From the NCBI GenBank assembly GCA_009720755.1, contig WNKV01000028.1, positions 1 to 40,540 of the forward strand: a stretch of DNA of 40,540 nucleotides. Direction: 5' to 3'. Source of the stretch: Rhodoplanes serenus. Its GTDB lineage: Bacteria > Pseudomonadota > Alphaproteobacteria > Rhizobiales > Xanthobacteraceae. The translations under genes were made by a program, and so were the position numbers. Of the stretch, positions 1,640 through 29,100 are shown piece after piece. Numbering within the stretch: position 1 is the stretch's first letter; the number at the start of each line of letters is the position of its first letter. Under the pieces are notes generated by a model. It worked only from the letters and a program-made list of their open reading frames with translations, did no database searches and was not told the origin of the DNA.

Positions 1640-4687
<3,048 letters not shown>

Positions 4688-4805
4688 CGGCGCAATATGG
4701 GCCGGCGACCGTGGCAGGGAAAGGGCCGGGCTGCCCCGTCGGCAGAGACGTCCTATATTACTCCCGGGGTGGTGCTCGCCCCGTACGTCAACCAGGGGAC
4801 GCCCG

Positions 4806-5204
4806 ATGATCACGCCTCCCGACGCCTATCTGGATCTGCTGACCGGCAAGAAGGCTTTCGCCAGCATCGCCACCGTGATGGCGGACGGCGCGCCGCAGGT
4901 GACGCCGGTGTGGTTCGACTTCACCGACGGCGTCGTCCGCGTCAACACCGCCAAGGGCCGGGTGAAGGCCCGGACGCTGACGCCGGGCGCCCGCGTCGCC
5001 CTCGCCATCATCGATCCCGACAACCCCTATCGCTATCTCCAGATCCGCGGCCGTGTCCGCCACGTCACCGAGGACGGTGCCGACGCCCACATCGATGCGC
5101 TGGCCAAGAAGTATCTCGGCGTCGATACCTATCCGTATCGGCAGCCGGGGGAGCAGCGCCTGTCGGTGGAGATCGAGCCCACCTCGGCGTCCGGGATGAG
5201 CTGA
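4806..5204 (+). CDS. PPOX-class (flavin/F420-type split barrel) oxidoreductase-like protein
   Basis: A 132-residue protein of the pyridoxamine-5'-phosphate-oxidase-like split-barrel fold, closest by eye to the TIGR03618 group. The typical opening is present ([28 protein letters not shown]), then [41 protein letters not shown] and a C-terminal helix with [10 protein letters not shown]. Members bind FMN or F420, but the substrate is unknown. It is divergent from uvrB with 118 bp between starts, so the two promoters lie back to back. A TATATT element at about 4752 could be its -10. It ends 38 bp before a convergent gene. The family assignment is firm; the cofactor cannot be read from sequence alone. 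Confidence 0.85.
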
Positions 5205-8047: not shown

Positions 8048-8125
8048 GCCGTGCGCAGCACGGCGTATCGATGAGCAGCCGTGGCAGCACGGCGTGTCTA
8101 TCAGCAGGCCGTGCGCAGCACGGCG
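8048..8125. repeat. three 30-nt tandem units at the btaB 3' end
   Basis: Units begin at 8048, 8078 and 8108. Each contains GCCGTG(C)GCAGCACGGCG, itself a hairpin (GCCGTGC-GCA-GCACGGC). The third unit lies inside the last codons of btaB (AVLRTAC-stop on the minus strand); the other two lie just downstream. This looks like local duplication of the gene's end. The hairpins sit between convergent genes and could stop transcription. Confidence 0.7.
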
Positions 8126-8796
8126 CGCTGGGAATAGCCGCGATAGGGGCGGGTGACCGACAGGGTGGCACCGATCGTCGCCGCCGAGGCCGCCAGGTAC
8201 TCTTCGAGACGATCGCGCGGCGTCACGTCGAACAGGGCCAGCCAGCGGCGCAGCGCCCTCCGCGCGGCGGCGGGCAGCCCCTCCTGGGTGCCGAAATCGA
8301 CGATCTGAAGCTCGCCCCCGGGGGCCACCGCGGCGAGCGCGCGGTCCAGCGCCGCCTCCCAGTCCGGGATCATCGACAGCGTGTAGGAGAAGTAGACGCG
8401 CTCGAATGCCGGCTCGCCGAACACGGCGGCGGGATCGAGCAGGGTGGCATCGGCCCGGGCGAGCCCGATGCGCGATGCGAGGCCGGCACGGGCGACGCCG
8501 CGCGCCGCGCTCGCCAGCATCTCGCCCGACACGTCGACGCCGAAGAAGCGCGCCGCCGGATAGCGCCGCGCCGCCCGCACCAGGTTGCGGCCGGTGCCGC
8601 AGCCGATCTCCAGCACGCGGTGGCCGGGCGCCGGCGCGAGATCGCGAATCAGCCCGTCGCGGCCGAGCAGATAATACTTGCGCGTCAGATCGTAGACGTG
8701 GCGCTGGTGGCGGTACATCCGGTCCATGCGGTGGGCCGCGTCGGCCGCGATCGTGGCACCCATGCGGTCCGGCCCAGCGGCGCTCCGCTCCAGCAT
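8101..8796 (-). CDS. btaB: BtaB-type N-methyltransferase of betaine lipid (DGTS) synthesis
   Basis: A 231-residue class I SAM methyltransferase. The N-terminal signature MDRMYRHQRHVYDLTRKYYLLGRD is characteristic of BtaB; the SAM loop is VLEIGCGTGRNL, followed by FFGVDVSGEML and VYFSYTLSMIPDWEAALDRA. BtaB methylates diacylglyceryl-homoserine three times to give diacylglyceryl-N,N,N-trimethylhomoserine, a phosphorus-free membrane lipid. It follows btaA with a 4-nt gap and is surely co-transcribed. ATG 8796 was chosen; a second in-frame ATG at 8763 (MGATIAAD) also fits because family members start close to the MDRMYRHQ motif. Its last codons carry one unit of a 30-nt repeat that continues downstream. 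Confidence 0.93.
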   Translation of the reverse strand: MLERSAAGPDRMGATIAADAAHRMDRMYRHQRHVYDLTRKYYLLGRDGLIRDLAPAPGHRVLEIGCGTGRNLVRAARRYPAARFFGVDVSGEMLASAARGVARAGLASRIGLARADATLLDPAAVFGEPAFERVYFSYTLSMIPDWEAALDRALAAVAPGGELQIVDFGTQEGLPAAARRALRRWLALFDVTPRDRLEEYLAASAATIGATLSVTRPYRGYSQRAVLRTAC

Positions 8797-8800
8797 GGCG

Positions 8801-10033
8801 TCAGTCCGCCAGGACATAGAGATGGAAGCCGCCATAGATGGCGGAGCGGTCGCGTGCCGTGAAGGCCCGCGAGGCCGCCTCCTCGTAGCGCCAGCGCGCC
8901 AGGATCGCGGCGTCGAGGCGGCCCGGCAGCAGGCTCGGCTCGGCGGCGGTGCGGAAGATGACGCGGGCGCCCGGCCGGGCGGTGCGGGTGATCTCGCCCC
9001 ACAGTGCATCGAGCTGGGCGTTTGTCATCCAGTCCTGGGCGTCGAGCAGGACGTAGCGGTCCACCGACGCGGCCGGCTGCGCGGCGAGATGCTCGGTCAT
9101 CACCGCGTTGACGACGGCCACGCGATGAGCCCGCGCGCTCACCGCCGGGAAGTTCGCCTGTTCCAGATAGGGCGGCACCGGGTCGTGCTCGCCGCCGCCG
9201 TAGCGGCGCCCGAACGCCTGCCAGGCGAAGTAGTTCTGATCGAGGTCGAAGCCGCAGGTGAGGCGCTCGACGCGGCTGCGCAGCACGCTCGCCATGTCGC
9301 TGCCGGCCGAGGCCAGCGCGGCATGCTGGGCCGGCGGGATGCCGAGCCCGTAGAGTGCGAACGGCCGCTCCGCAGCCCAGCGCACGAATCGCTTCTCGAA
9401 CAGCGGCGCCAGCAGCGTCTCGAAGGCGCGCGCCTGCTCGTCGCGTGAGCGAGCTTGCAGCACGGCCCGCAGGTCGACGCCATAGAGCCGTGCCACCGTG
9501 TGGCCGAGCCCGATGAAGCGGCCGAGCAGCCCGTGCCGATAGACATTGCGGGCGAACATCGAGATGCGCGGGCGGCCGATCCCGAAGGCGCCGCGGCCTT
9601 CCCAGTAGGCGCGCGTCGGTGCGTCGAGCCGCGGTGCGAGATGATTCCAATAGGCCGCGACATTGGCGGGGTCGTCGGCGCTGCCGAAGAAGCGATGGAA
9701 GGCGCGCCATGACGGCAGGTGCCGCGCTGCCGCGAGCTTGAGGCGCACCAGCGCCACATGCGCGGTGTTGACGTCGACCGCGGTGATGCGGGCCGGATCG
9801 GCGACCAGATACGAGAGCACGTTGCAGCCGCCCGACGCGATGGCGACGACGTGACAGCCGCGATCGATCGCCAGCGCCTCCATGTCGACGGCGGGGTCCT
9901 CCCAGATCTGGGGATAGACCAGACCACGAAACATCCAGGCGAACAGCGCCTCGGACAGGCCCTGACGCGAGAGCGTGGGCGTGCGGCGAACGGCGGCGCT
10001 GACGCCGCATCGAACCTTCGACGACGTGAGCAA
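8801..10033 (-). CDS. btaA: BtaA-type S-adenosylmethionine:diacylglycerol 3-amino-3-carboxypropyl transferase
   Basis: First enzyme of betaine lipid synthesis: moves the 3-amino-3-carboxypropyl group of SAM onto diacylglycerol. The 410-residue protein (DUF3419 family) has the typical N-terminal segment ALFAWMFRGLVYPQIWEDPAVDMEAL, a nucleotide-binding stretch HVVAIASGGCNVLSYLVADP followed by ITAVDVNTAHVALVRLKLAA, the FGIGRPRISMFARNVYRHGLLG region and a second Rossmann-like half with RYVLLDAQDWMTNAQLDALWGEI. The best start is TTG 10033 with GAGG about 6 nt upstream; no ATG is available before the conserved region, so the exact N-terminus is uncertain. A PHO-box-like site lies 80 nt upstream, matching phosphate-starvation control known in Sinorhizobium. 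It precedes btaB on the same strand. Confidence 0.93.
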   Translation of the reverse strand: MLTSSKVRCGVSAAVRRTPTLSRQGLSEALFAWMFRGLVYPQIWEDPAVDMEALAIDRGCHVVAIASGGCNVLSYLVADPARITAVDVNTAHVALVRLKLAAARHLPSWRAFHRFFGSADDPANVAAYWNHLAPRLDAPTRAYWEGRGAFGIGRPRISMFARNVYRHGLLGRFIGLGHTVARLYGVDLRAVLQARSRDEQARAFETLLAPLFEKRFVRWAAERPFALYGLGIPPAQHAALASAGSDMASVLRSRVERLTCGFDLDQNYFAWQAFGRRYGGGEHDPVPPYLEQANFPAVSARAHRVAVVNAVMTEHLAAQPAASVDRYVLLDAQDWMTNAQLDALWGEITRTARPGARVIFRTAAEPSLLPGRLDAAILARWRYEEAASRAFTARDRSAIYGGFHLYVLAD

Positions 10034-10449: not shown

Positions 10450-12501
10450 ATGCGGCACAACTTCACGCAGACGATGACGCTCGCCGGCTCGGTCCAGGAC
10501 GTCGACGCCGCCACGTCGACCTTCAGCCTGAAGGCGCGCACCGGCGACGTGTTTCGGGTGACGGTGGGCGAGACCACCACCTATCAGGTGCTCACCAACC
10601 TCGATCAGATCGGCCGCGACCGCGTGCCGGAGCCGACGACGGCGTCGCCCGACGACGTGCGCCGCGCGCTGGCGAAGTACATCGTGTCGGGGCGCCCGCT
10701 GTTCGTCGCCGGCCTCTATCAGCTCGACGGCGAGCGCGAGCGATTCGAGGCGCGCACCGTCTATCTGCTGCACTCCGATCCTGGCCGCTATCTGTTCGAG
10801 GAGACGCACTGGTGGCTCGCCCAGGTCACCCAGATGGCCGATCGCATCCTCGACCATCTGTTCGATCAGCGCCGCAGCTACACCATCGACGACTTCGCCA
10901 AGTTCTACCGCACCAACCTCAACATTCTCGGCCAGCCGGTGGACGACGACGTGCAGGAGAGCGCGGTGCTGTCGCGGCTGCTCTACGATCTCTCCACCGC
11001 CTTCCTGATCACCGGCGCGGAGCGCTACTTCCTCGCCGCCAACGCCGCGATGAAGTATCTGCGCGAGGCGTTCCGCTCGATCAGCCACGACGGCGAGTAC
11101 TGCTTCTGGGCCTATGGCCGGCGGCGCCACGAGGAGGGCGAGAAGGGCGAGAGCCTGTTCTTCGCGTCCCAGGGACCCGACGACATCGGCACCATTCCAC
11201 TCTATGAACAGATCTACTCGATCGCCGGGCTCACCCAATACTATCGCATCACCCTCGACACCGAGGTGCTGGAGGACATCCGGCGCACCATCAACGCCTT
11301 CCAGGCGTTCTGGTGGGACCCGCCGGCGGCCCGCGACAAGGGCTTTGCCGGCACCGGCGGCTACTACTCGCATCTCGATCCGGTGACCATGCGGCCCGAT
11401 ACTCCGGCGCTCGGCGACAACTTCCGCCGCAAAAACTGGAACTCGATCGGCGACCATATTCCCGCCTATCTGATCAATCTGATCCTCACCCTCGAGCCGC
11501 TGCCGCAGGGCACCGGGCGGGGCTATTTCGATGCGCTGCTGCGCACCTGCCTCGGCATCCTGGAGGAGACGACGAGCCTCATCGTCGAGAAGTTTCCCGA
11601 TCCGAAATCGAGCTATGTCAACGAGCGCTTTCACGACGACTGGACGCCCGACCACACCTATCGATGGCAGCAGAACCGCGCCGTCGTCGGCCACAACCTG
11701 AAGATCGCCTGGAACCTGACGCGCTGCGCCAACTACTTCCACATGCGTGCGGCGCGCCGCCGCGCCATGGGCAAGGTGCCGGAGGCGGCGGGCGACGACG
11801 ATCGCGCCGCGCGCTGTCTCGCGATCGCTCGCCAGCTCGCCGACCGGATGGCGTCCGTCGGCCTCGACGTGATTCGCGGCGGCGTCTTCGACTGCGTCGA
11901 GCGCGAGCCCTCGGGTGGCATGCCGATCCAGTTCGCGTGGGGCGCCACCAAGGACTTCTGGCAGCAGGAGCAGGGCATCCTCGCCTATCTGGTGCTGCAC
12001 GGCGCGACGCCGAGCGACCCCCAGTATCTCGGGCTCGCGCGCGAATGCGAAGCCTTCTGGAATCTGTTCTTTCTCGATCGCGAGCGCCAGGGTTACTACT
12101 TCCGCACCACCGAGAACGGGCTGCCGATCATCGACGGCCAGTACGGCATGAAGAGCAGCCACGCCATCGGGTATCACGCTTTCGAGCTGGCCTATCTGGC
12201 CCATGTCTACACCCGCGCCTTCGTGGATGCGGGCCGCGAGGCCGACAACGGCTTCTGCCTGTTCTTCCGGCTGCGCAAGTCGTCGATCCAGACCAGCATC
12301 AACGTGCTGCCGGACTTCATGCCGCCCGGTCGCCTGTCGATCGAGCGCATCGTCGCCAACGGCATCGACGTGACGGCCGACAAGCGGCCCGCCAACCCGG
12401 ACGACTTCCAGATCCATCTCGACGGTCTCGACGGCGAGCGGACCGACGGCACCATCTCGCTGGTGGTGCAGTTCACCGCCATCGCCCCGACCGGCGCCTG
12501 A
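10450..12501 (+). CDS. N-acylglucosamine 2-epimerase (AGE) family protein with extra beta domains
   Basis: A 683-residue protein. Residues ~1-115 form an OB-like beta domain (VQDVDAATSTFSLKARTGDVFRVTV). The middle, ~120-605, is an (alpha/alpha)6 barrel of the AGE/cellobiose-epimerase superfamily: GHNLKIAWNLTR at 414-425, K501-x2-W504-Q-Q-E507 (family KxxWxQxE), and H571/H576 in SSHAIGYHAFEL, the place of the second catalytic His. The Glu common in GHxxE is Lys here (residue 418). The C-terminal ~75 residues look like another beta domain. AGE enzymes epimerise or isomerise free sugars through an enediolate; the sugar here is unknown. No signal peptide is seen, so it is cytosolic. It is the first gene of the 10450-17395 cluster, 30 bp before the DJ-1 gene. 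Start ATG 10450 follows GGGGGA; sequence upstream has no family similarity. Confidence 0.72.
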   Translation: MRHNFTQTMTLAGSVQDVDAATSTFSLKARTGDVFRVTVGETTTYQVLTNLDQIGRDRVPEPTTASPDDVRRALAKYIVSGRPLFVAGLYQLDGERERFEARTVYLLHSDPGRYLFEETHWWLAQVTQMADRILDHLFDQRRSYTIDDFAKFYRTNLNILGQPVDDDVQESAVLSRLLYDLSTAFLITGAERYFLAANAAMKYLREAFRSISHDGEYCFWAYGRRRHEEGEKGESLFFASQGPDDIGTIPLYEQIYSIAGLTQYYRITLDTEVLEDIRRTINAFQAFWWDPPAARDKGFAGTGGYYSHLDPVTMRPDTPALGDNFRRKNWNSIGDHIPAYLINLILTLEPLPQGTGRGYFDALLRTCLGILEETTSLIVEKFPDPKSSYVNERFHDDWTPDHTYRWQQNRAVVGHNLKIAWNLTRCANYFHMRAARRRAMGKVPEAAGDDDRAARCLAIARQLADRMASVGLDVIRGGVFDCVEREPSGGMPIQFAWGATKDFWQQEQGILAYLVLHGATPSDPQYLGLARECEAFWNLFFLDRERQGYYFRTTENGLPIIDGQYGMKSSHAIGYHAFELAYLAHVYTRAFVDAGREADNGFCLFFRLRKSSIQTSINVLPDFMPPGRLSIERIVANGIDVTADKRPANPDDFQIHLDGLDGERTDGTISLVVQFTAIAPTGA

Positions 12502-12531
12502 ACGTCACGTCGCGCAAGCCAGGAGACCGCG

Positions 12532-14079
12532 ATGACCAACACGCCCCTCGCCGGCAAGAAGATCGCCGTGCTCGTCGAGTCCCAGTATATCCCGGGCGAG
12601 ATCCGCCTCTACCGCGAACGCTTCGCCGCCTATGGTGCGACCGTCGATCTGGTGTCGCGCCTGTGGGGGCAGCCCAGCCTGCGCTTCTACTCGACGGTCG
12701 AGCCCGGCGTCGTCGACGAGATCGAATGGATCGAGGTCGACAAGGACGTCGCGACGGTGGCGCCGGAGGATTATGCCGCCGTCATCGTCTCGGCCAACTA
12801 CACCAGCGTGCGACTGCGCTGGAGCGAGCGCGAGGACGTGACCGCCGCCAATGCCGCCGAGGTGGCGCGGAGTGTGCCGGCCGCGCACTTCTTCCGCCGT
12901 GCCATGGCGGACCCGCGGATCGTCAAGGCCGCCGCCTGCCACGGCCTGTGGCTGCTGACCACCTCGCCCGATCTGCTCGCCGGCCGCAAGGTGATCTGCA
13001 ACAAGGTGGTGCTCGCCGACGTGGTCAATGCGGGTGGGCTCTACACGCCCTGCGTCGCCGGCACGCCGGAGGATCGCCAGGTGGTGGTCGACGGCGATCT
13101 CGTCACCAACAACTCCTGGCATGCCACCGAGGCGCTGATCGATGCGGTGAAGGATGCCATCGTGGCGGGACCCGCGGCGGGCGTGCCCGATCCGCTGCCC
13201 CCGCTCCCGGACCCGCGCGGAAAACGTCACGTCCTCGTGGTGCTGTCGGAATGGGGCTACTGGGGCGAGGAGCTGGTCGGGCCGCTGGACGAGTTCGACC
13301 GCGCCGGCTGGACGGTCGATTTCTGCACGCCGAACGGACGCCGGCCCAACGCGATTCCCGTCAGCATGGACCCGGACTTCTTCGACCCCGCCCTGATGCG
13401 GCCGGTGACGACGCCCGCGATGGCCGCCAAGGTGCGCGAGATCGACGATCCGTCGACCGCGCAGGGGCGCCGCCTGCAAACGCCGATCTCGCTCGCCGCC
13501 TGGTTCCCGGATCGGCCCTACTACTCGGCGCCGAGCTTCGTGCGCCTGCTCGAAGCCTACAATCGGGCCCTGGCGGCGGCGCGCGACAGCATCGCGCGTT
13601 ACGACGCGGTGCTGATCGTCGGCGGCTCAGGGCCGGTGGTCGACCTCGTCAACAACCAGCGCGTCCACGACCTGATCCTGGCGTTCCACGACGCCGGCAA
13701 GCCGATCGCGGCGGAGTGCTACGGCGTCGCCTGCCTGGCCTTCGCGCGCGACATGAACATCCGCAAGAGCATCATCTGGGGCAAGCACGTCACCGGGCAC
13801 TGCCTCGAATACGACTACAAAGATGGCACCGCCTTCGTGCGCGCCCGCAACACGTTCCTGGACTTCAACATGGGGCCGCCGCCCTATCCGCTGGAGTTCA
13901 TCCTGCGCGACGCGACCGGGCCGGACGGTGGATTCCACGGCAATTTCGGGCATCCGACCAGCGTGCTGGTCGACTACCCGTTCATCACCGGGCGCTCGAC
14001 GCCGGACAGCACGCTGACCGGCCGCAAGCTGATCGAGGTGCTCGACGGTGATCCGCCGCTTCGCCGCTGGGGCTGGTGA
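12532..14079 (+). CDS. tandem DJ-1/PfpI domain protein
   Basis: A 515-residue protein made of two DJ-1/PfpI (class I glutamine amidotransferase-like) domains. Domain 1 (~1-200) opens KKIAVLVESQYIPGEIRLYRERF and has a nucleophile elbow AACHGLWLL with Cys136. Domain 2 (~230-505) opens KRHVLVVLSEWGYWGEELVGPL, has DAVLIVGGSGPVVDL near 360 and a second elbow AECYGVACL with Cys396 preceded by Glu395. Both retain the cysteine, so both could be active. Known family activities are glyoxalase III, deglycase/hydratase and protease-like; domain 2 with its longer N-terminal part is closer to Hsp31-type members by eye. AGGAG precedes ATG 12532. It lies between a sugar epimerase-like gene and an EthD gene, which suggests action on sugar-derived carbonyls (inference). 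Confidence 0.8.
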   Translation: MTNTPLAGKKIAVLVESQYIPGEIRLYRERFAAYGATVDLVSRLWGQPSLRFYSTVEPGVVDEIEWIEVDKDVATVAPEDYAAVIVSANYTSVRLRWSEREDVTAANAAEVARSVPAAHFFRRAMADPRIVKAAACHGLWLLTTSPDLLAGRKVICNKVVLADVVNAGGLYTPCVAGTPEDRQVVVDGDLVTNNSWHATEALIDAVKDAIVAGPAAGVPDPLPPLPDPRGKRHVLVVLSEWGYWGEELVGPLDEFDRAGWTVDFCTPNGRRPNAIPVSMDPDFFDPALMRPVTTPAMAAKVREIDDPSTAQGRRLQTPISLAAWFPDRPYYSAPSFVRLLEAYNRALAAARDSIARYDAVLIVGGSGPVVDLVNNQRVHDLILAFHDAGKPIAAECYGVACLAFARDMNIRKSIIWGKHVTGHCLEYDYKDGTAFVRARNTFLDFNMGPPPYPLEFILRDATGPDGGFHGNFGHPTSVLVDYPFITGRSTPDSTLTGRKLIEVLDGDPPLRRWGW

Positions 14080-14092
14080 ACTCACGCGCCGG

Positions 14093-14200
14093 TCGTTCCC
14101 GGGAGCGCGGCGAAGCCGCGAACCCGGACGCCAGCATCCGATTCCGAAGCACGCAACGGAAGTCCGGGTTCGGCGCGTCGCGCCGTCCCGGAATGACGGA
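14093..14200. repeat. REP-like long imperfect inverted repeat between cluster genes
   Basis: The left arm begins TCGTTCCCGGGAGCGCGGCG and the right arm ends with CGTCCCGGAATGACGG-like sequence, with AACCCGGA and GTCCGGGTT as inner arms. The shape (CGTTCCCGGG... CCCGGAATGACGG) is that of intergenic elements common in Bradyrhizobium-type genomes. It fills the gap between the DJ-1 and EthD genes and may separate their expression or stabilise the message. Confidence 0.65.
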
Positions 14201-14211
14201 GCAGGTCGCCG

Positions 14212-14922
14212 ATGATCCAGCAGTTCATCTTCGCACATCCCAAGCCCGGGATGAGCGAGGCGGAGTTCCAGCGATACTGGGTCGAGGTGCATGCGGTGCG
14301 CTATGCGAGCCGCATCCCGCAGATCCGCAAGTACAAGGTGGATACCCGCATCGCTCGGCCGGGCGATCCCGCCGATCCGTTGTGGGACGGCGTCGCCGAG
14401 ATCTGGCTCGATGACGAGGCGGCCGAGGTGGCCTCGCTGGAGTCGCCCGAGCTGATCCAGGGCGCCCGCGCCGACGAGCCCAACTGGGCGGCGTTCTGGC
14501 GCACCGTGGTGCTCGACACCACGGCGCATCCGCGGCTGCCCGGGCCGCCCGAGACGCGCGACGCCGCCGGCGTGCTGCTGCTGGTCCTCACCAAGCGCCG
14601 CGAGGGCCTGCGTCTCGCCGACTTCCGCGCCCATCTGCTGGGGCCGCACGCCGACAAGGCGGAGGCGCTGCCGGGGCTGCGGCGCTATCAGATCGGCCTC
14701 GTCCGCGACGCCGCCTATGCGATCAGCGAATCGCCGCTCGATGCCGTCGAGCAATTCTGGTTCGACGATGCCGATGCGGTGGATGTCGCGGAAGCGTCGC
14801 TGCCGCATGCGCTGCTCGCGGCCGATTGGCGCCTGTGCGCCGAGCCGCGCTGGCTGCATCGGATGCTCGTGCGCGAGCACTGGATCATCGGGCCGGAGCT
14901 ACGGCCCTATCCGCCTGCATGA
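14212..14922 (+). CDS. tandem EthD-domain protein (dimeric alpha/beta barrel)
   Basis: A 236-residue protein with two EthD-like ferredoxin-fold halves. The first is MIQQFIFAHPKPGMSEAEFQRYWVEVHAVRYASRIPQIRKY (~1-100). The second starts near 118 with VLLLVLTKRREGLRLADFRAHLLGPHADKAEALPGLRRYQI. Single EthD domains normally dimerise to make the barrel; here the duplication can build it within one chain. EthD proteins include small accessory proteins of ether degradation and polyketide or catechol-type lyases and cyclases; the substrate cannot be deduced. The stop is 16 nt before the GH13 start, so co-expression with it is likely; an REP-like element separates it from the DJ-1 gene upstream. Confidence 0.75.
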   Translation: MIQQFIFAHPKPGMSEAEFQRYWVEVHAVRYASRIPQIRKYKVDTRIARPGDPADPLWDGVAEIWLDDEAAEVASLESPELIQGARADEPNWAAFWRTVVLDTTAHPRLPGPPETRDAAGVLLLVLTKRREGLRLADFRAHLLGPHADKAEALPGLRRYQIGLVRDAAYAISESPLDAVEQFWFDDADAVDVAEASLPHALLAADWRLCAEPRWLHRMLVREHWIIGPELRPYPPA

Positions 14923-14938
14923 CTTCTGCGAGGACCCC

Positions 14939-17395
14939 ATGCCGCAGATTCCCGTCCATTTCGAGTATCGCACCGGCCTGCGCCATATCGTGCTTCGCAA
15001 CATGCGCCTGACCGGGAGCTGGGACGCGGCCGGCCGGTCCTCGGCGCAGTGGTCGACGGTGCCGATGGAGGCCTTCACGGCCGACGACGGCTGCCCGGCG
15101 TTTCGCGCCACCATCGGGCTCGCCGCCGACGCCGTCGGCAACACGTTCCACTGGAGCGTCGTTGCCGAGACGGCGGCGGGCGAGAGCATCTCGGCCATTC
15201 CGACCGAGCCGAGCGAGGCGGATGCGACCGATCCGGTGCGCGCCTTCGTGCTCGCCGGCGCCGATCAGATCGAGCGATACCATCTCACCCATTGCCGACG
15301 CCTCGGCGCCAACCGGCTGGAGCGGCCGGGCGCGCCGCCGGCGGTGCGTTTTGCCGTCTGGGCGCCCTATGCCCAGAAGGTGGAGCTGGTGCGCGGCCTG
15401 CTCTCGGGCGCCGAGAACGACAAGGGCGGCTATATCTTCGACGACGGCCGCGGCATCAAAGAAACGGCACCGATGCATCGCGAGCCGGACGGCGTGTGGA
15501 GCACGCGGCCCGAGGATCTGCCCGAAGGCGGGTTGCTGACGGCCTACGATCACACCCTCTACATGTTCCGCATCACCCGCGACGACGGCAGTATCGTCTA
15601 CCGAACCGATCTCTACTCGCGCTGCCAGATCGGCAGCGGCAATGTCGATCCGGCTCGCGATCCGTCGTGGTGCGGCTGCCGCCGCAGCCTCGACGGCACC
15701 AAGAGCTGCTCCGTGATGGTCGATCCGGCGCGCGGCGTGACGACCAACTTCGAATCGACGGTGTTCCCGGAGACCGAGTGGACCGCCGAAGAGGAGTTCT
15801 GGCGCGACGAGTTCGATCCGGCGCGGCCGGTGCCGCAGCGGCTGGAGGATCTCGTCATCTACGAGCTGCATGTCGACGGGCTGGCGGCCGGCCAGGCGGC
15901 GCGCGGTCGGTTGAAGGACGCCATGGCGCTGCTGCCCTATCTGCGCGACCTCGGCGTCAACGCGATCGAGCTGATGCCGCTGTCCGAATACGAGGGCTGG
16001 GCGAGCTGGGGCTACGGCTCGTCGCACTACCTCGCCATCGAGTATGCGGGCGGCGGCCGCGACCAGTTCAAGCATTTCGTTCGCGAATGCCATCGCCATG
16101 GCATGGCGGTGATCATGGACGTGGTCTACAACCACTACATCAAGGATGCCGAGCGGGCCGAATGGGCCTACGATTCGACCGCGCCCGAGCGCAACATCTA
16201 TTACTGGTACGAGGGCAAGCCCGGCGACTATCGGTTTCCGGAGGGCGGCTATATCGACAACCAGTCGACCGGCTGGGCACCGCGCTTCTTCGAGGAGAAC
16301 GTCCGCAAGCTGTTCTGCTCCAGCGCCGCCATGCTGGTCGACGAGTTCCATGTCGACGGCTTCCGCGTCGACCAGACGACATCGCTGCATTCCTATGCGG
16401 TGCTGCACGCCGACGGGCGCGCCGCGAACACCGCCCGGATCTTCGGCCAGAAGTTTCTGCGCGAATGGACCCGCACGGTGCGGCTGGTGCGGCCCGACGT
16501 GATCCTGATCGCCGAGGATCATTCGGGCTGGCCGGCGGTGACGCAGCCGACCGCGGCGGGCGGGCTCGGCTTCGATGCCGCCTGGTATGCCGAGCACTAC
16601 CATCAGCTCATCGGCGACGCGACCAACGACAGCCAGCGCGCCCGGCTTCTCAATTTCGCCGGCTACGGCGACGACCGGCCGCTCGCCATGAGCTGGTTCG
16701 CCGGCACGCTGGCGGCGAGCACGCAGGGGCGGGTCGTCTATCACGAGTCCCACGACGAGGCGGGCAATTCGAGCTACGAGGAGAACGGCCGCAAGGTTTA
16801 CTCGGCCCGCACCATCGTGACGGCGGTGAACGGGGCGCCGCTCGTCGGCGCGACCCGCGACGTGGCCGAGGCGCGGGTGCGGGTCGTCGCCGCGCTCTCG
16901 CTGCTCGGCCCCGCGACCCCGATGTTCTTCATGGGCGAGGAGGTCGGCGCGTCGCAGCCCTACCGCTATGACGACTTCATCGATCACCGGGAGAACTTCC
17001 CGGCGATGCGGGAGTCCTGGGGGGCGCGGCTGTTCGGCTTCTATCGCGACGTGATCGCGCTGCGGCGGGAGAGCCCGGCGCTGCGCTCGCATGCGATCGA
17101 TATCCTCCACGTCCATGACGCCAACCGGGTGCTGGCGTTCCGCCGCGCCACCGACGGCGCCGCGCCGGGGGGCGAACTCCTGGTGATCGCCAGCCTCGCC
17201 AATCACGCCTACGCGGCAGGCTACCGCATCGCCCATCCGACGCTCGCCGACGGGCAATGGCGCGAGGTGCTGAACAGCGACGCCCCAATGTATGGCGGCA
17301 GCGGACTAGTCAATCCGGCGCTTGTCGAGTCGCAGCACGGCGCCGTGACGGTGCTGCTGCCGGCCACAGCGGTCGTGGTGCTGCAACGATCCTGA
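14939..17395 (+). CDS. GH13 alpha-amylase-family enzyme, GlgB (branching enzyme)-like
   Basis: An 818-residue alpha-glucan enzyme. Residues ~1-85 look like a small starch-binding domain (MRLTGSWDAAGRSSAQWSTV). A CBM48-like domain follows at ~135-280 (RFAVWAPYAQKVELVRG), then the TIM barrel. GH13 regions are intact: DVVYNH 394-399, GFRVDQ with nucleophile Asp478, IAEDHSGWPAVTQP with acid/base Glu526, and ESHDE with Asp606. Region III and FMGEEVG resemble glycogen branching enzymes more than amylases. A cysteine-rich insert starts at Cys229 (CQIG... CGC... SCSV). A C-terminal all-beta domain ends the chain. There is no signal peptide, so the site is cytosolic glycogen or malto-oligosaccharide. 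GAGGA is 5 nt before ATG 14939. It is the last gene of the cluster. The activity (branching, transfer or hydrolysis) is open. Confidence 0.87.
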   Translation: MPQIPVHFEYRTGLRHIVLRNMRLTGSWDAAGRSSAQWSTVPMEAFTADDGCPAFRATIGLAADAVGNTFHWSVVAETAAGESISAIPTEPSEADATDPVRAFVLAGADQIERYHLTHCRRLGANRLERPGAPPAVRFAVWAPYAQKVELVRGLLSGAENDKGGYIFDDGRGIKETAPMHREPDGVWSTRPEDLPEGGLLTAYDHTLYMFRITRDDGSIVYRTDLYSRCQIGSGNVDPARDPSWCGCRRSLDGTKSCSVMVDPARGVTTNFESTVFPETEWTAEEEFWRDEFDPARPVPQRLEDLVIYELHVDGLAAGQAARGRLKDAMALLPYLRDLGVNAIELMPLSEYEGWASWGYGSSHYLAIEYAGGGRDQFKHFVRECHRHGMAVIMDVVYNHYIKDAERAEWAYDSTAPERNIYYWYEGKPGDYRFPEGGYIDNQSTGWAPRFFEENVRKLFCSSAAMLVDEFHVDGFRVDQTTSLHSYAVLHADGRAANTARIFGQKFLREWTRTVRLVRPDVILIAEDHSGWPAVTQPTAAGGLGFDAAWYAEHYHQLIGDATNDSQRARLLNFAGYGDDRPLAMSWFAGTLAASTQGRVVYHESHDEAGNSSYEENGRKVYSARTIVTAVNGAPLVGATRDVAEARVRVVAALSLLGPATPMFFMGEEVGASQPYRYDDFIDHRENFPAMRESWGARLFGFYRDVIALRRESPALRSHAIDILHVHDANRVLAFRRATDGAAPGGELLVIASLANHAYAAGYRIAHPTLADGQWREVLNSDAPMYGGSGLVNPALVESQHGAVTVLLPATAVVVLQRS

Positions 17396-17583: not shown

Positions 17584-17674
17584 CGATCCCGCCGATTTGC
17601 TCGGCTATCTGTCGGCTCGATGTCCCGCCGCGTCGAGTCCGCTCGTCGAAACGAAGCTCTCGTCCCGACCTCAA

Positions 17675-18097
17675 GTGATCCCCGTGTTTCGTAATCCGTT
17701 GCCGTCAACCGGCCACCGGGTGGCCGCCGTCGATCGTCGCCGCTTCCTCGGGGGCACGTGGAGCCGTGACTCGAGCGGAGCAGCCGGAGCGCGGCCGGGC
17801 GCGGCCGAACCCAGCAGGGCGGTGGCGAGCGCGGCGGCCGAGGACGACAGCCCGGCGGCTGCCTGCCTGCTGGTTCGTGCGCACCCGGCTCGAATCGATG
17901 CCGTCGCGGCGGCGATCCCCGACATCGATGGAGTCGATCGTGTCACCGCCGCGCCGGGCGGCCGCCTGGTCGCCACCGTGTGGTGCGATCACGTCGCTGC
18001 GGCGCTCGGCGCCATCACGGCGCTCCCCGGCGTCCTCGCCGTTTCGATCCGCGATACCTCGCTCGACACCCAGACCGACCCGGAGAACCGCGCATGA
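17675..18097 (+). CDS. NapD-like protein with N-terminal twin-arginine-type motif
   Basis: 140 residues from GTG 17675. Residues ~70-137 are NapD-like: AACLLVRAHPARIDAVAAAIPDIDGVDRVTAAPGGRLVATV, ending PGVLAVSIRDTSLD, the place of the NapD VSLVYH strand. The N-terminus carries VDRRRFLGGTW, resembling a Tat motif or the start of NapF ferredoxins, followed by an Ala/Ser/Pro-rich linker. NapD proteins bind the NapA Tat signal to guide cofactor loading. The start is uncertain: no strong ribosome site is seen, and GTG 17684, TTG 17699 and GTG 17720 are alternatives; TTG 17597 is excluded if transcription starts near 17618. Its stop overlaps the next napD start (ATGA). It is a second NapD paralogue or a NapF-like N-terminus fused to NapD. 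Confidence 0.7.
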   Translation: MIPVFRNPLPSTGHRVAAVDRRRFLGGTWSRDSSGAAGARPGAAEPSRAVASAAAEDDSPAAACLLVRAHPARIDAVAAAIPDIDGVDRVTAAPGGRLVATVWCDHVAAALGAITALPGVLAVSIRDTSLDTQTDPENRA

Positions 18098-18360
18098 ATG
18101 TCTGCGGCGTCCTCGTCCACACCGTTCCGGACCGCGCCGACGAGGTGGCGCGCGCGCTCGGTGAGATTCCCGGCAGCGAGCTGCACGGCGCCGCCGATGG
18201 CGGTCGGCTGATCGTGACGCTGGAAGACACCCCGCAGGCGACCGCGCTCGACGGTCTCGCGGCCATTCACCGGCTCCCCGGCGTCGTCGCCGCGGCGCTC
18301 GTCTATCACGGATTCGACCAGGACCGCGGCTCCGCCGCCCCGCACGTCATGGAGGCTTGA
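18094..18360 (+). CDS. napD: NapD, chaperone of periplasmic nitrate reductase
   Basis: 88 residues, full-length Nap[45 protein letters not shown] with the C-terminal strand [17 protein letters not shown]. NapD binds the twin-arginine signal of NapA in the cytoplasm, preventing export before the molybdenum cofactor and 4Fe-4S cluster are inserted. Its ATG overlaps the stop of the preceding NapD-like gene by ATGA, and it ends 4 nt before napA with GGAGG inside its last codons, so the three are translationally coupled. Confidence 0.92.
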
Positions 18361-18364
18361 AGCA

Positions 18365-20887
18365 ATGTCCGAGCAGACGCGACGCGACACCATGAAGCTG
18401 GCCGCCGTGGCGGCCACCGCGGCGGCCGCCGGCGTGGCGCTTCCCGACACCGAGGCTGCGGCGCAGGTGACGCGGCCGGACGGCATCCGCTGGGACAAGG
18501 GCGTTTGCCGCTTCTGCGGCACCGGCTGCGGCGTGCTGATTGGCGTCAAGGCCGGCCGCATCGTGGCGACGCAGGGCGATCCCGATGCGCCGGTCAACCG
18601 CGGCCTCAACTGCATCAAGGGCTACTTCCTCTCCAAGATCATGTATGGCGAGGACCGCCTGACCCGGCCGCTGCTGCGCATGCGCAACGGCAAGTTCGAC
18701 AAGACCGGCGACTTCGCTCCGATCACCTGGGCGCAGGCGTTCGAGATCATGGCCGAGAAGTGGAAGGCGGCGCTCAAGAAGGGCGGCCCCTCGGCGGTCG
18801 GCATGTTCGGCTCCGGCCAGTGGACCGTGTGGGAAGGCTACGCCGCCGCCAAGCTCTACAAGGCCGGCTTCCGCTCCAACAATCTCGATCCCAATGCGCG
18901 GCACTGCATGGCGTCGGCGGTCGCCGGCTTCATGCGCACCTTCGGCATCGACGAGCCGATGGGCTGCTACGACGACCTCGAGCACGCCGACGGCTTCGTG
19001 CTGTGGGGCGCCAACATGGCCGAGATGCACCCGATCCTGTGGTCGCGCCTGACCGACCGGCGGCTGACCCACGACGGCTGCGAGGTGCATGTGCTCTCCA
19101 CCTACGAGCACCGCAGCTTCGAGCTGGCCGACAACGGCATGATCTTCGTGCCGCAGTCCGACCTGGCGATCCTCAACTTCATCGCCAACTGGATCATCCA
19201 GAACGGCGCCGTGAACCAGGACTTCGTCGGCAAGCACGTCGCCTTCGCCCACACGGTCGAGGACATCGGCTACGGCCTGCGGCCCAGCCATCCGCTGGAG
19301 GAGAAGGCGAAGAACGCCTCTCACAAGGCCGGCAAGGACGGCGCGCTCGATCCCGCCGGCATGCGCGACATCACCTTCGAGCAGTACAAGGAGGCGGTGT
19401 CCAAGTACACGCTCGACTACACGGCCAAGCTCTCCGGCGTCGAGCCCGAGAAGCTGGTGCGGCTGGCCAAGCTCTATGCCGACCCGAAGAAGAAGGTGGT
19501 GTCGTACTGGACCATGGGCTTCAACCAGCATGCCCGCGGCACCTGGGTGAACAATCTCGTCTACAACATCCATCTGCTCACCGGAAAAATCTCCGAGCCG
19601 GGCAACGGCCCGTTCTCGCTCACCGGTCAGCCGTCGGCCTGCGGCACTGCCCGCGAGGTCGGCACTTTCGCGCACCGGCTGCCCGCCGACATGGTGGTGA
19701 CCAGCCCGCAGCACCGGGCGATCAGCGAGAAGATCTGGCAGCTTCCCGAAGGCACCATCCCGGGCAACATCGGCTACCACGCCGTGGTGCAGCACCGGAT
19801 GCTCAAGGACGGCAAGCTCAACGCCTACTGGGTCCAGTGCACCAACAACATGCAGACGGCCCCGAACATGAACCAGGAGGGGCTGCCGGGCTACCGCAAC
19901 CCCGATGCGTTCGTGGTGGTGTCGGACCCGTACCCGACCGTCACGGCGCTCGCCGCCGACCTGATCCTGCCAACCGCCATGTGGATGGAGAAGGAAGGCG
20001 CATACGGCAATGCCGAGCGGCGCGGCCAGTTCTGGCGCCAGCAGGTCAAGGCGCCGGGCGAGGCGCGGTCCGACCTCTGGCAGACCATCGAGTTCTCGAA
20101 ATACTTCAAGGTCGAGGAGGTGTGGCCCGAGGAGCTGATCGCCAAGAAGCCGGAGTATCGCGGCAAGACGCTCTACGACGTGCTGTACGCCAACGGGGTC
20201 GTCAACAAGTTCCCGCTGTCGGAGCTTCAGCAGGGCTTCGACAACGACGAGTCCACCGCGTTCGGCTTCTATGTCCAGAAGGGGCTGTTCGAGGAGTACG
20301 CGGTGTTCGGCCGTGGCAAGGCGCACGACCTCGCGCCGTTCGAGACCTACCACAAGGCGCGTGGCCTGCGCTGGCCGGTGGTCGACGGCAAGGAGACGCT
20401 GTGGCGCTTCCGCGAGGGCTACGACCCCTACGTCAAGGCGGGCGAGGGCGTGAAGTTCTACGGCAAGCCGGACGGCCGCGCGCGCATCATCTTCTGCCCG
20501 TACGAGCCGGCGGCCGAGAGCCCCGACAAGGACTTCGATCTGTGGCTGTGCACCGGCCGCGTGCTGGAGCACTGGCATTCCGGCTCGATGACGCGCCGGG
20601 TGCCGGAGCTGCATCGCTCCTACCCGACCGCGCAGCTCTTCATGCATCCGGACGACGCGATGAGCCGCGGGCTGCGGCGCGGCCAGCTCGTCAAGGTGGC
20701 GACCCGCCGCGGCGAGGTGGTGACCCGGGTGGAGACGCGCGGCCGCAACAAGGTGCCGCCGGGCCTCGTCTTCATCCCGTTCTTCGACGAGGCGCAGTTG
20801 ATCAACAAGCTGACGCTCGACGCCACCTGCCCGATCTCCAAGGAGACCGACTTCAAGAAGGCGGCCTGCAAGGTGGTGCCGGTCTGA
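18365..20887 (+). CDS. napA: periplasmic nitrate reductase catalytic subunit NapA
   Basis: Reduces nitrate to nitrite in the periplasm with bis-MGD molybdenum and one 4Fe-4S cluster. It has 840 residues, the normal length. A Tat signal covers residues 1-34 ([19 protein letters not shown], cleavage probably after AAAQ). The cluster cysteines are Cys48, 51, 55 and 83 (CRFCGTGCG... NCIKG). The Mo ligand is Cys181 in [10 protein letters not shown]. Later motifs include [43 protein letters not shown] and a C-terminal molybdopterin-binding domain. The Tat motif is unusual: RRDTM instead of the common RR-x-F-L/I. It receives electrons from NapB. It follows napD by 4 nt and is separated from napG by 153 bp with a repeat. 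Confidence 0.98.
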
Positions 20888-20920
20888 GCCGACGGCGGTG
20901 CGTCGCGAGCAGATGAGGCC

Positions 20921-21012
20921 GTCATGGCCGGGCCTGACCCGGCCATCCATCGAACGACGACGGCGAGCGTCGTCTTCACAGGATGGATGCGCGGGTCGAG
21001 CCCGCGCATGAC
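20921..21012. repeat. REP-like palindromes between napA and napG
   Basis: Two hairpin units: 20921-20950 (GTCATGGCCGGG... CCCGGCCATCCAT) and 20980-21012 (GGATGGATGCGCGGG... CCCGCGCATGAC). Related units with the same GTCATGGCCGGG core occur at 33053-33080 and 34573-34602. Being inside an operon, it may set differential mRNA stability between napDA and napGHBC. Confidence 0.75.
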
Positions 21013-21040
21013 GGGTGACAGAAGGCGAATGTGAGTCGAG

Positions 21041-21793
21041 ATGGCGTCAGAGCCCCACCATAGCGTCAACCGCCGCCGCTTCGTGCAGGGCACCCTGCGC
21101 ACCGCGATGGGCGCGGGTGTCGGCGGTCTCGCGCTCGCGCTGCTCGCCCGCCAGTCGCGATCGCTGCCGGCCGATGCGCTGCGTCCGCCGGGCGCGCTGC
21201 CGGAGCCGAACTTCCTGGCGGCCTGCGTGCGCTGCGGCCTGTGCGTGCGGGCCTGCCCCTACGACACGCTCAAGCTGGCCGATCTCGCGGCCGGCCCCGC
21301 CGGCGGCACCCCGTACTTCCGGGCGCGAAACATCCCGTGCGAGATGTGCGAGGACATCCCGTGCGTGAAGGCGTGCCCGACCGGCGCCCTCGACAAGTCT
21401 CTCGTCGACATCACGGCGGCCCGCATGGGCGTCGCTGTCATCGTGTCGCGCGACACCTGCCTCAATCTCCAGGGCCTGCGCTGCGACGTCTGCTATCGCG
21501 TCTGCCCGGTGATCGACAAGGCGATCACCCTGGAGCAGTCCCACAATCGCCGCACCGGCAAGCACGCGGTGTTCGAGCCGGTGGTGCATCCGGACGCCTG
21601 CACCGGCTGCGGCAAGTGCGAGAAGTCCTGCGTGCTCACCGAGGCGGCCATCAAGGTGCTGCCGATCGGGCTCGCGGCCGGCCGCCAGGATGCGCACTAC
21701 CGGCGCGGCTGGGAGGAGAAGCGCAAGGCCGGCGAGGAGCTGGTGCCCGGGCTGATCGATCTGCCCGACCGGCTGCCGGAGATGAAGCCATGA
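21041..21793 (+). CDS. napG: NapG, MauM/NapG-type ferredoxin with four 4Fe-4S clusters
   Basis: A 250-residue periplasmic iron-sulfur protein that with NapH passes electrons from quinol toward NapA. Tat signal NRRRFVQG at residues 10-17 followed by a hydrophobic stretch. Four cysteine groups: [12 protein letters not shown] (from Cys62), [31 protein letters not shown] and [11 protein letters not shown], i.e. four 4Fe-4S clusters as in E. coli NapG. Its stop overlaps the napH start (ATGA). The ribosome site is weak, so expression may depend on readthrough past the upstream repeat. Start ATG 21041 gives a complete Tat signal. Confidence 0.95.
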
Positions 21794-26158: not shown

Positions 26159-29100
26159 ATGCCGGCCTTCTTCATCGACCGCCCCATCTTCGCGGTGGTG
26201 GTGGCGCTGTTCATCTGCCTGTTCGGGGCGCTGGCGATCCCGTTCCTGCCGGTGGCGCAGTATCCGATCATCGCGCCGCCCTCCATCTCGGTGTCGACCA
26301 GCTATCCGGGCGCCTCGCCCGAGAACCTGTACAACAGCGTCACCCGGCTGATCGAGGAGGAGCTGAACGGCGCCAGCGGCATCCTCAACTTCGAGTCGAC
26401 CTCCGATTCGCTCGGACAGGTCGAGATCCTCGCCAACTTCGTCCCCGGCACCGATCCGAGCCTCGCCTCCGTCGAGGTGCAGAACCGCATCAAGCGGGTG
26501 GAGGCGCGCCTGCCGCGCGCCGTGATCCAGCAGGGCATCCTGATCGAGGAGGCGTCGAGCGCCGTCCTCCAGATCATCACGCTGTCCTCGACCGACGGCA
26601 GCCTCGACGAGATCGGCCTCGGCGACTTCATGATCCGCAACGTGCTGGGCGAGATCCGGCGCATCCCGGGCGTTGGTCGCGCCACGCTGTACTCGACCGA
26701 GCGGGCGCTGCGCGTGTGGCTCGATCCCGCGCGGCTCGTCGGCTACAATCTCACGGCCGACGACGTCACCAAGGCGATCGAGGCGCAGAACGCCCAGGTC
26801 GCATCCGGCAGCATCGGAGCCGAGCCGAGCCGGACCGGCCAGCCGGTCTCCTCCATGGTGCTGGTCAAGGGTCAGCTCGCCTCGCCGAACGAGTTCGGCG
26901 CCATCGTGCTGCGCGCCAACGCCGACGGCTCGACGGTGCGGCTGCGCGACGTGGCGCGCATCGAGGTCGGCGGCCTCAACTACCAGTTCACCACCCGGCT
27001 GAACGGCCAGCCGACCGCCGGCCTCTCGGTGCTCTTGTCGCCGACCGGCAACGCGCTGGCCACCGCCCGCGCCGTGCAAGCCAAGATGGAGGAGCTGTCG
27101 AAGTTCTTCCCGCAGAACATCAAGTACCAGATCCCCTACGACATCACCCCGGTGGTGCAGGCGTCGATCAAGAAGGTGCTGATGACGCTGGCCGAGGCGG
27201 TGGTGCTGGTGTTCATCGTGATGTTCCTGTTCCTCCAGAACATCCGCTACACCATCATTCCCACCGTCGTGGTGCCGGTGGCGCTGCTCGGCACCTGCGC
27301 GGTGCTGCTGATCGGCGGCTTCTCCATCAACATGCTGACGCTGTTCGCCATGGTGCTGGCGATCGGCATCCTGGTCGACGACGCCATCGTGGTGGTCGAG
27401 AACGTCGAGCGCATCATGGTGGAGGAGCGCTTGCCGCCGCGCGAGGCCACCCGCAAGGCGATGCGGCAGATCTCCGGCGCCATTGTCGGCATCACGCTGG
27501 TGCTGATGGCGGTGTTCGTGCCGATGGCGTTCTTCCCCGGCTCGGTCGGCATCGTCTACCGCCAATTCTCCATCACCATGGTGGCGGCGATCGGCTTCTC
27601 GGCCCTGATGGCGCTGTCGCTGACGCCCGCGCTGTGCGCCACGCTGCTCAAGCCGGTGACTCACCACGGCGAGAAGCGCGGCGTGTTCGGCATCTTCAAC
27701 CGCGGCCTCGACCGTACGCGCGACGGTTACGGCCGCTTCGTCGGCTGGTCGCTGGCGCGCTCGGGGCGGATGCTGGTGGCCTTCCTGGCCATCGTGGTGG
27801 CGATGAGCTGGATGTTCGCGCGGCTGCCCGCCGGCTTCCTGCCGGTGGACGACCAGGGCTTCATCACCACCGACGTGCAGACGCCGCCCGACGCCTCGTT
27901 CAACCGCACGCTCGACGTGGTGCAGCGGGTCGAGCAGTTCCTGATGAACCGCGATGGCGTCGACAACATCACCTTCATCACCGGGTTCAGCTTCCTCGGC
28001 CAGGGCGCCAACACGGCGCAGGCGTTCGTCACCCTCGACGACTGGTCGAAGCGCGGCCCGAACGACTCGGCCGCCGCCATCGTGGCCGACGTCAACCGCA
28101 GCCTCGCCGGCATCAAGGACGCCGACATCTCGGCGCTCCAGCCGCCGCCGATCGACAACCTCGGCAACTCGTCCGGCTTCAGCTTCCGTCTCCAGGACCG
28201 CGGCCAGAAGGGCTATGCCGAGCTGATGCGGGCCCGTGACATGCTGCTCGACGCGGCCCGCAAGAGTCCGATCCTCCAGGACGTCTATGTCGAGGGCCTG
28301 CCGCCGGCGCCGCAGATCGAGCTGATGATCGACCGCGAGAAGGCGGCCGCCCTCGGGGTCGCCTTCCAGGAGATCAACTCCACCATCTCGACCAATCTCG
28401 GCTCGTCCTACATCAACGACTTCCCCAATCGCGGCCGCATGCAGCGCGTCATCGTGCAGGCCGACAACGGCGCCCGGATGAAGGCCGAGGACATCCTCGG
28501 CTTCAATGTCCGCAACGACAAGGGCACGCTGGTGCCGTTCTCGTCCTTCGCCACCGTCAAGTGGTCGGTCGGGCCGAGCCAGGTGGTCGGCTTCAACTAC
28601 TACCCGTCGGTGCGCGTCAGCGGCTCCGCCAAGCCGGGCTTCACCTCGGGCGACGCCATCGCCGAGATGGAACGGATCGCCGGCACGCTGCCGCGCGGCT
28701 TCGGCTTCGAGTGGACCGGCCAGTCGCTCCAGGAGAAGGCGGCGGGCTCGCAGGCGCCGTTCCTGCTGGCGCTGTCGGCCCTGGTGGTGTTCCTGGTGCT
28801 GGCCGCCTTCTACGAGAGCTGGACGATCCCGATCGCGGTGCTGCTGGTGGTGCCGCTCGGCATGCTCGGCGCCGTGCTGGCGGTGACCTCGCGCGCGATG
28901 CCCAACGACGTCTACTTCACCATCGGCCTGATCACCATCATCGGGCTCGCCGCCAAGGACGCCATCCTGATCGTCGGCTTCGCCCGCGACCTCAATCTCG
29001 CCGGTATGCCGCTCGCCCAGGCCACCGTCGAGGCGGCGCGGCTGCGCTTCCGCCCGATCCTGATGACCGGCTTCGCCTTCGTGTCGGGCGTCGCCCCCAT

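Follow-up and report, generated by a model that had tools for sequence, protein, structure and literature searches.

Do four adjacent genes in Rhodoplanes serenus, for an AGE-superfamily protein, a two-domain DJ-1 protein, a two-domain EthD protein and a GH13 enzyme, form a metabolic unit, and what might such a unit do? The genes lie at 10450-17395 of the window (the whole stretch of DNA analysed, 40,540 nucleotides), which makes up all of contig C20 in a draft genome of 5.5 Mb. A first-pass annotation had suggested that as a cluster they handle alpha-glucan and a reactive sugar intermediate. Judging from sequence, we tentatively regard the window's genes as the short form of a larger metabolic module, patchy in its distribution, with a core of AGE, DJ-1 and GH13, a reading to which we give somewhat less than an even chance.

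The four genes and their products

The genes and the features around them are as follows.

10450..12501, plus strand: AGE-superfamily protein, 683 aa, with K418 in the active-site motif (PF07221, hhalign)
12532-14079, plus strand: two-domain DJ-1 gene
12532..13176, plus strand: first DJ-1 domain, residues 1-215 (TIGR01382 and PF01965 matches)
13204..14079, plus strand: second DJ-1 domain of the same gene, residues 225-515, PF17124 type (PF17124)
14080..14211, no strand: dispersed palindromic repeat, intergenic (inverted repeat 14110-14129/14162-14181)
14212..14922, plus strand: two-domain EthD protein, 236 aa, an optional part of the module (PF07110)
14939..17395, plus strand: GH13 enzyme, 818 aa, with CBM48 (PF00128, PF02806, PF02922)
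17597-21793, plus strand: NapD-type, molybdopterin oxidoreductase and 4Fe-4S genes, downstream of the four genes

The first-pass annotation had claimed four same-strand genes of these families, separated by 30, 132 and 16 nt. We confirmed intact reading frames with Pfam scores above the curated cut-offs, and gaps of exactly these lengths (12502-12531, 14080-14211 and 14923-14938). Purifying selection acts on each of the four genes, with dN/dS of 0.17-0.39 in eight comparisons with loci L007 and L009. No signal peptides were seen when the N-termini of the module proteins were read by eye, and the proteins are thus taken as cytoplasmic. The 132-nt gap had been described as repeat-filled, and a palindromic repeat is indeed found there. 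It matches at least 36 other places in this genome (a lower bound, as 40 of 182 candidate matches were scored) and, being dispersed, was rejected as an element of the module. Elsewhere the window encodes UvrB (1640-4813, minus strand), an AcrB-type RND pump (26159-29350, plus strand), and a methyltransferase (8101-9009, minus strand) beside a DUF3419 gene (8801-10033, minus strand), a pair like BtaB/BtaA of betaine-lipid synthesis.

Proteins of the AGE superfamily have two catalytic-type histidines and a conserved arginine. The window's protein matches PF07221 at 32.4 bits (curated cut-off 23.4), and 29 of 40 relatives match this model at E 0.001. A single-sequence search of solved structures gave no significant match; hhalign of the AGE profile against six ordinary AGE proteins (E. 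coli YihS and five others) gave a probability of 94%. In the profile alignment R176, E392, H415 and W504 sit on R55, E218, H248 and W316 of YihS, a protein of 413 aa as against 683, and H576 is aligned to the YH-motif histidine of cellobiose 2-epimerase 5zig. H336 and E507 are also invariant, but are not aligned exactly on H176 and E320. H415, H576 and R176 are kept in 43 of 43 aligned relatives. In a wider set of 89 rows, in which the window is present twice, they occur in 87, 85 and 86 rows, the rest being gaps or single changes. K418 is equally constant (43/43 and 87/89), and it occupies the position of Glu251 of YihS (E251), a residue that is Glu in all six comparison proteins. Because the Glu of the GHxxE motif is replaced by Lys, we file the protein as a divergent relative rather than as a known AGE enzyme; with this change it could be that it does not isomerise at all.

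The DJ-1 gene matches PF01965 (67.7 bits) and PF17124 (70.3 bits), both above the curated cut-offs. Its first domain fails the TIGR01382 (DJ-1/PfpI/YhbO) cut-off, with 82.2 against 139.05 bits. E16, C136 and H137 of the first domain are kept in 68 of 68 sequences and C396 of the second in 51 of 51. Tandem duplication had been suggested for both the DJ-1 and the EthD protein. For DJ-1 no duplication is visible: the halves best fit different models and have no significant BLASTP similarity (best E 1.7). The halves of EthD do look duplicated (27% identical, E 2e-6). The EthD protein matches PF07110 at 74 bits and TIGR02118 at 56.2 (cut-off 30.5).

The GH13 enzyme matches PF00128 (75.2), PF02806 (43.2) and CBM48 (PF02922, 27.9 against a cut-off of 22.4). 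Its catalytic triad, D478/E526/D606, is intact in 27 of 27 sequences. The enzyme shares a CBM48, a GH13 domain and an intact triad with GlgB and TreZ, to which it is related, but it is distinct from both. The protein falls far below the equivalog cut-offs for GlgB (178.9 against 577 for NF008967; 177.7 against 741 for NF003811) and below that for TreZ (173.1 against 538.8). The genome's own GlgB and TreZ score 957.5 and 600, true GlgB, GlgX, TreS, TreY and TreZ are encoded elsewhere in it, and the GH13 motifs differ from those of its GlgB, TreZ and GlgX. An ordinary GlgB or TreZ is ruled out by the cut-offs and the true copies. The low-temperature amylase gene of cyanobacteria, lti2, was considered as a possible relative, a lead that came to nothing. 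An anti-phage defence system was rejected, as the only match to the PADLOC models was that of the GlgB model to the GH13 protein. Taken together, the conserved catalytic residues of AGE, GH13 and DJ-1 suggest that these are active enzymes.

Linkage of AGE, DJ-1 and GH13 across bacteria

We scanned 84,980 genomes with exact short AGE peptides and identified 66 loci in many phyla, a count that is a lower bound and biased to close relatives because exact peptides are needed. The loci were hand-assigned to 20 taxonomic groups, several of which are classes or orders, and many of the records are metagenome bins. Among named records, the closest loci are three from Rhodoplanes and one labelled Rhodovulum sp. 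PH10. In the genomes sampled, AGE is present in five of six from the window's own genus (the one without it is 58% complete) and in four of 100 from the family, all within this genus. One genome of 150 in the order and one of 385 in the class encode it, in both cases the window's own. No AGE relative was found in 50,697 phage records, and a phage-borne module was rejected on this ground.

Neighbouring genes were counted with profile HMMs made from recurrent neighbours and run on all ORFs of the 66 loci, so that weak hits may be favoured in these counts, the models having been built from the loci they count. The first DJ-1 domain is encoded in 60 loci, always on the AGE strand, and in 54 it is directly downstream (within 600 bp). 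The second occurs in 48 loci; the two share a single gene in 24 and form separate genes in the other 24. GH13 is present in 47 loci, on the AGE strand in 46, and missing from 19, some of them truncated by contig ends. Genomes were searched for 50 of the loci; GH13 was identified in 39 of these genomes, and 11 have no match at E 1e-60. Among the 44 loci with longer flanks, 41 encode DJ-1 and 39 GH13. Three loci have no partner genes: L013 and L028 end 313 and 10 bases from AGE, and L056, which is fully flanked, is a true miss. Proximity is kept across lineages while gene order differs.

Checked for co-occurrence across genera, the proposed cluster held for AGE, DJ-1 and GH13, which are found together in 44 of the 66 loci, but not for the exact four-family set, which occurs in 11 (four of them in the window's own genus), nor for a constant order. 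EthD is present in 13 loci. Given these counts, and a module larger than four genes, the four-gene claim was too narrow. EthD is an optional part of the module, and accidental neighbourhood could partly hold for it.

Tests in Nostocaceae and on plasmids are independent of the HMMs. GH13 was identified in eight of 145 Nostocaceae genomes, and in seven of these the closely related AGE is on the same strand, no more than 12 kb away; the eighth, G748, retains GH13 together with fragments of DJ-1 and a short remnant of AGE. In another genome (G727) an AGE at 47% identity is accompanied by a DJ-1 gene, with GH13 absent from its vicinity. AGE matches were found in 50 of the 145 genomes overall, the rest of them belonging to a second, diverged type with identities of about 39-44%. 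Sixteen regions were hand-picked from the positions of these GH13 and AGE matches.

Among 72,556 plasmids, AGE is present on 18. DJ-1 (E <= 1e-40, mostly the second domain) is on 14, all among those 18, although the 14 cases are not independent, since several of the eight Streptomyces plasmids look alike. The two genes are within 5 kb of each other on ten plasmids and within 10 kb on 12, and about 13.5 and 25 kb apart on the other two. GH13 was identified on a single plasmid of the 72,556, where AGE is present too. In L051:9992-12598 (868 aa) and L052:9983-12610 (875 aa), and likewise in the partial L068, a single ORF encodes AGE together with the first DJ-1 domain.

The linkage of AGE, DJ-1 and GH13 is not accidental. 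The case for chance would be that AGE is rare in relatives of the window's organism and that few loci have the exact four-family set. The linkage across phyla, the reciprocal tests in Nostocaceae and on plasmids, and the fusions refute it for these three genes, and that all four are mere neighbours by accident is extremely improbable.

The larger module and its short version

The frequent extras of the module are the second DJ-1 domain, a thiamine-diphosphate (ThDP) enzyme, GMC oxidoreductases, and SnoaL-like, VOC, EthD and ankyrin proteins. Over the 66 loci, ThDP was identified in 31, SnoaL-like and ankyrin-type proteins in 18 each, GMC in 17 and VOC in nine. Four cyanobacterial loci and Thiosymbion encode AGE, DJ-1, DJ-1, ThDP, several SnoaL-like proteins, GMC, VOC and GH13, and a Rhodospirillales bin (L012) has a similar order without the second DJ-1. 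A tautomerase domain is found on one SnoaL-like protein in L026 and L027. Muconolactone isomerase, carboxymuconolactone decarboxylase and aldo/keto reductase are also present in the clusters. Of 38 internal unassigned ORFs, 28 were scanned, with 25 of 35 families listed. Some loci encode further proteins: an ankyrin/SnoaL-type protein fused to a ThDP enzyme (L044:9126-12398), DJ-1 fused to an ankyrin part (L035:11956-13677 and L061:11948-13669), and, adjoining module genes, proteins of 190 and 188 aa with no Pfam match (L030:16652-17224 and L089:11888-12454, minus strand).

The second type is a separate AGE clade (support 100) with DJ-1, AGE and a GlgX-like GH13. All three genes were identified in 21 of 22 second-type loci, which had been chosen for holding AGE. 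DJ-1 is missing from the stretch of L077 examined, and in L110 the GH13, with a score of only 77 bits, may be an amylase that lies next to the cluster. Several of the loci L075, L076, L082, L083, L108 and L110 also have genes for STAS, SpoIIE or an anti-sigma-type ATPase. The Streptomyces plasmid copies, which are of this type, adjoin a gene annotated as a GlgE-type maltosyltransferase together with GlgB or TreS. A Nostoc plasmid module block adjoins MalQ. In another observation on a Nostoc plasmid copy, two genes at L073:20164-20824 are annotated as Nif11-like leader peptide natural-product precursors.

In quick trees with a single likelihood support value, the window's AGE falls into a group (support 100) with two loci of Rhodospirillales whose clusters include ThDP and GMC genes. 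The AGE tree has 68 rows, after five too-short rows were dropped, and long branches were flagged. The AGEs of Alphaproteobacteria do not form a single clade (AU p 0.001), a result consistent with transfer or with an old duplication. Separation of the window's clade plus Rhodospirillales from actinomycetes is not rejected (p 0.218), so direct transfer between these two groups is not shown.

A ThDP enzyme of the module's family is encoded elsewhere in all four genomes of the genus searched, with 48-51% identity to that of L011 and 62% to Sphingobium module copies, next to which it is nested within the module's ThDP tree (support 100). Its gene (L101:9063-10901; G000:C9:43161-44894) adjoins an SDR and nitrogen-fixation-type genes (NifH/frxC, a radical SAM protein with a FeMo-cofactor domain, and NifZ), not AGE. 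GMC relatives in the genus are distant (36-42%) in two of four genomes, and the other two, including the window's, have none at E 1e-40.

Proposed function and comparison with known systems

The module is probably concerned with stored sugar and with reactive products of sugars. Its likely function, as deduced from gene content, would be to convert intracellular alpha-glucan to a reactive sugar-derived carbonyl compound, or to clear glucan of one. GH13 would trim or transfer short glucans from stored alpha-glucan in the cell. AGE would open the reducing sugar and isomerise it at C2 via H415 and H576, with K418 altering the substrate range. Reactive carbonyl species would be converted or cleared by the DJ-1 domains. 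In loci that have them, the ThDP enzyme may make or break a C-C bond on a 2-oxo compound and the GMC enzyme may oxidise an alcohol, while the small EthD, SnoaL and VOC proteins may bind intermediates or isomerise them. The end product would be a carbonyl compound derived from sugar, or else a metabolite, protective or specialised, that is made from it. The ThDP and GMC counts imply that the later steps are not universal. The alpha-glucan part of the first-pass reading gains from the GlgE-type, TreS, GlgB and MalQ genes beside some plasmid copies and from the GlgX-like GH13 of the second type; its osone or keto-sugar part is conjectural.

A bolder reading, which we consider less likely than not, is a previously undescribed pathway passed between many bacterial phyla, in which a lysine-type AGE and a catalytic (non-repair) DJ-1 would turn alpha-glucan into a new sugar metabolite, and in which later steps of the ThDP, GMC and SnoaL type have been gained, lost and relocated. 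We consider it unlikely that the loci are instead specialised-metabolite clusters, in which ThDP builds a skeleton, SnoaL, EthD, muconolactone-isomerase-like and VOC proteins cyclise or isomerise it, GMC oxidises it, and AGE and GH13 supply or attach a sugar. Long clusters rich in small cyclase- or isomerase-type proteins, GMC and ThDP would suit such a role, as would the Nif11-type precursors in one plasmid copy and the patchy distribution, with alphaproteobacterial AGEs forming more than one clade. However, no PKS, NRPS or terpene synthase is among the recurrent families, the window's cluster is without ThDP and GMC genes, and the core common to both types is AGE, DJ-1 and GH13 rather than ThDP and GMC.

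Equally doubtful is a stress or repair module, in which stress mobilises alpha-glucan, DJ-1, VOC and EthD-type proteins deal with carbonyl damage by detoxification or repair, and AGE recycles sugars. The fusion of AGE to DJ-1 is unneeded for detoxification. The STAS, SpoIIE and anti-sigma-type genes that speak for this explanation are found in several second-type loci, whereas the first type lacks STAS and SpoIIE save for one SpoIIE match among the 28 cluster-internal genes scanned. Glyoxalase-type and DJ-1 families are present, as expected for repair, and methionine sulfoxide reductase is encoded near one copy (L030).

The first-pass annotation knew of no described pathway of this make-up, and a search of open papers gave none, a provisional result. 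A paper on Gloeocapsopsis dulcis (PMC10516996) makes no mention of epimerase, glgX, DJ-1 or debranching, and one on Nostoc punctiforme (PMC7660261) makes none of epimerase, amylase, PfpI or thiamine. Provisionally, what is new is the combination; the enzyme superfamilies themselves are known. Should the linked genes form a single pathway, cyanobacteria, actinomycetes, spirochaetes, myxobacteria and proteobacteria would share a use of alpha-glucan not described before, and both DJ-1 proteins and this AGE subfamily, whose active site is altered, could be tested in their native setting. For expression and assay, the four compactly arranged genes as found in the window's genus make a handy minimal set.

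The true activity of DJ-1 proteins is disputed. The window's DJ-1 protein has a family match and Glu/Cys/His residues in common with DJ-1/PfpI/YhbO and HSP31-like proteins, but unlike these it has two different domains per chain and is tied to AGE. The GlgE/TreS alpha-glucan loci of Streptomyces adjoin second-type copies and are not in first-type clusters; unlike the Streptomyces plasmid copies, the window's four genes have no GlgE or TreS gene beside them. In fungi, alpha-glucan lyase and pyranose-oxidase routes lead to anhydrofructose and glucosone. The module differs from these in that no GH31 lyase was noticed in passing among its recurrent neighbour families, and in that GMC is confined to a minority of loci (17/66) and absent from the window's cluster. 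What it may have in common with the fungal routes is a GMC oxidase and the idea of a path from alpha-glucan to a reactive dicarbonyl sugar.
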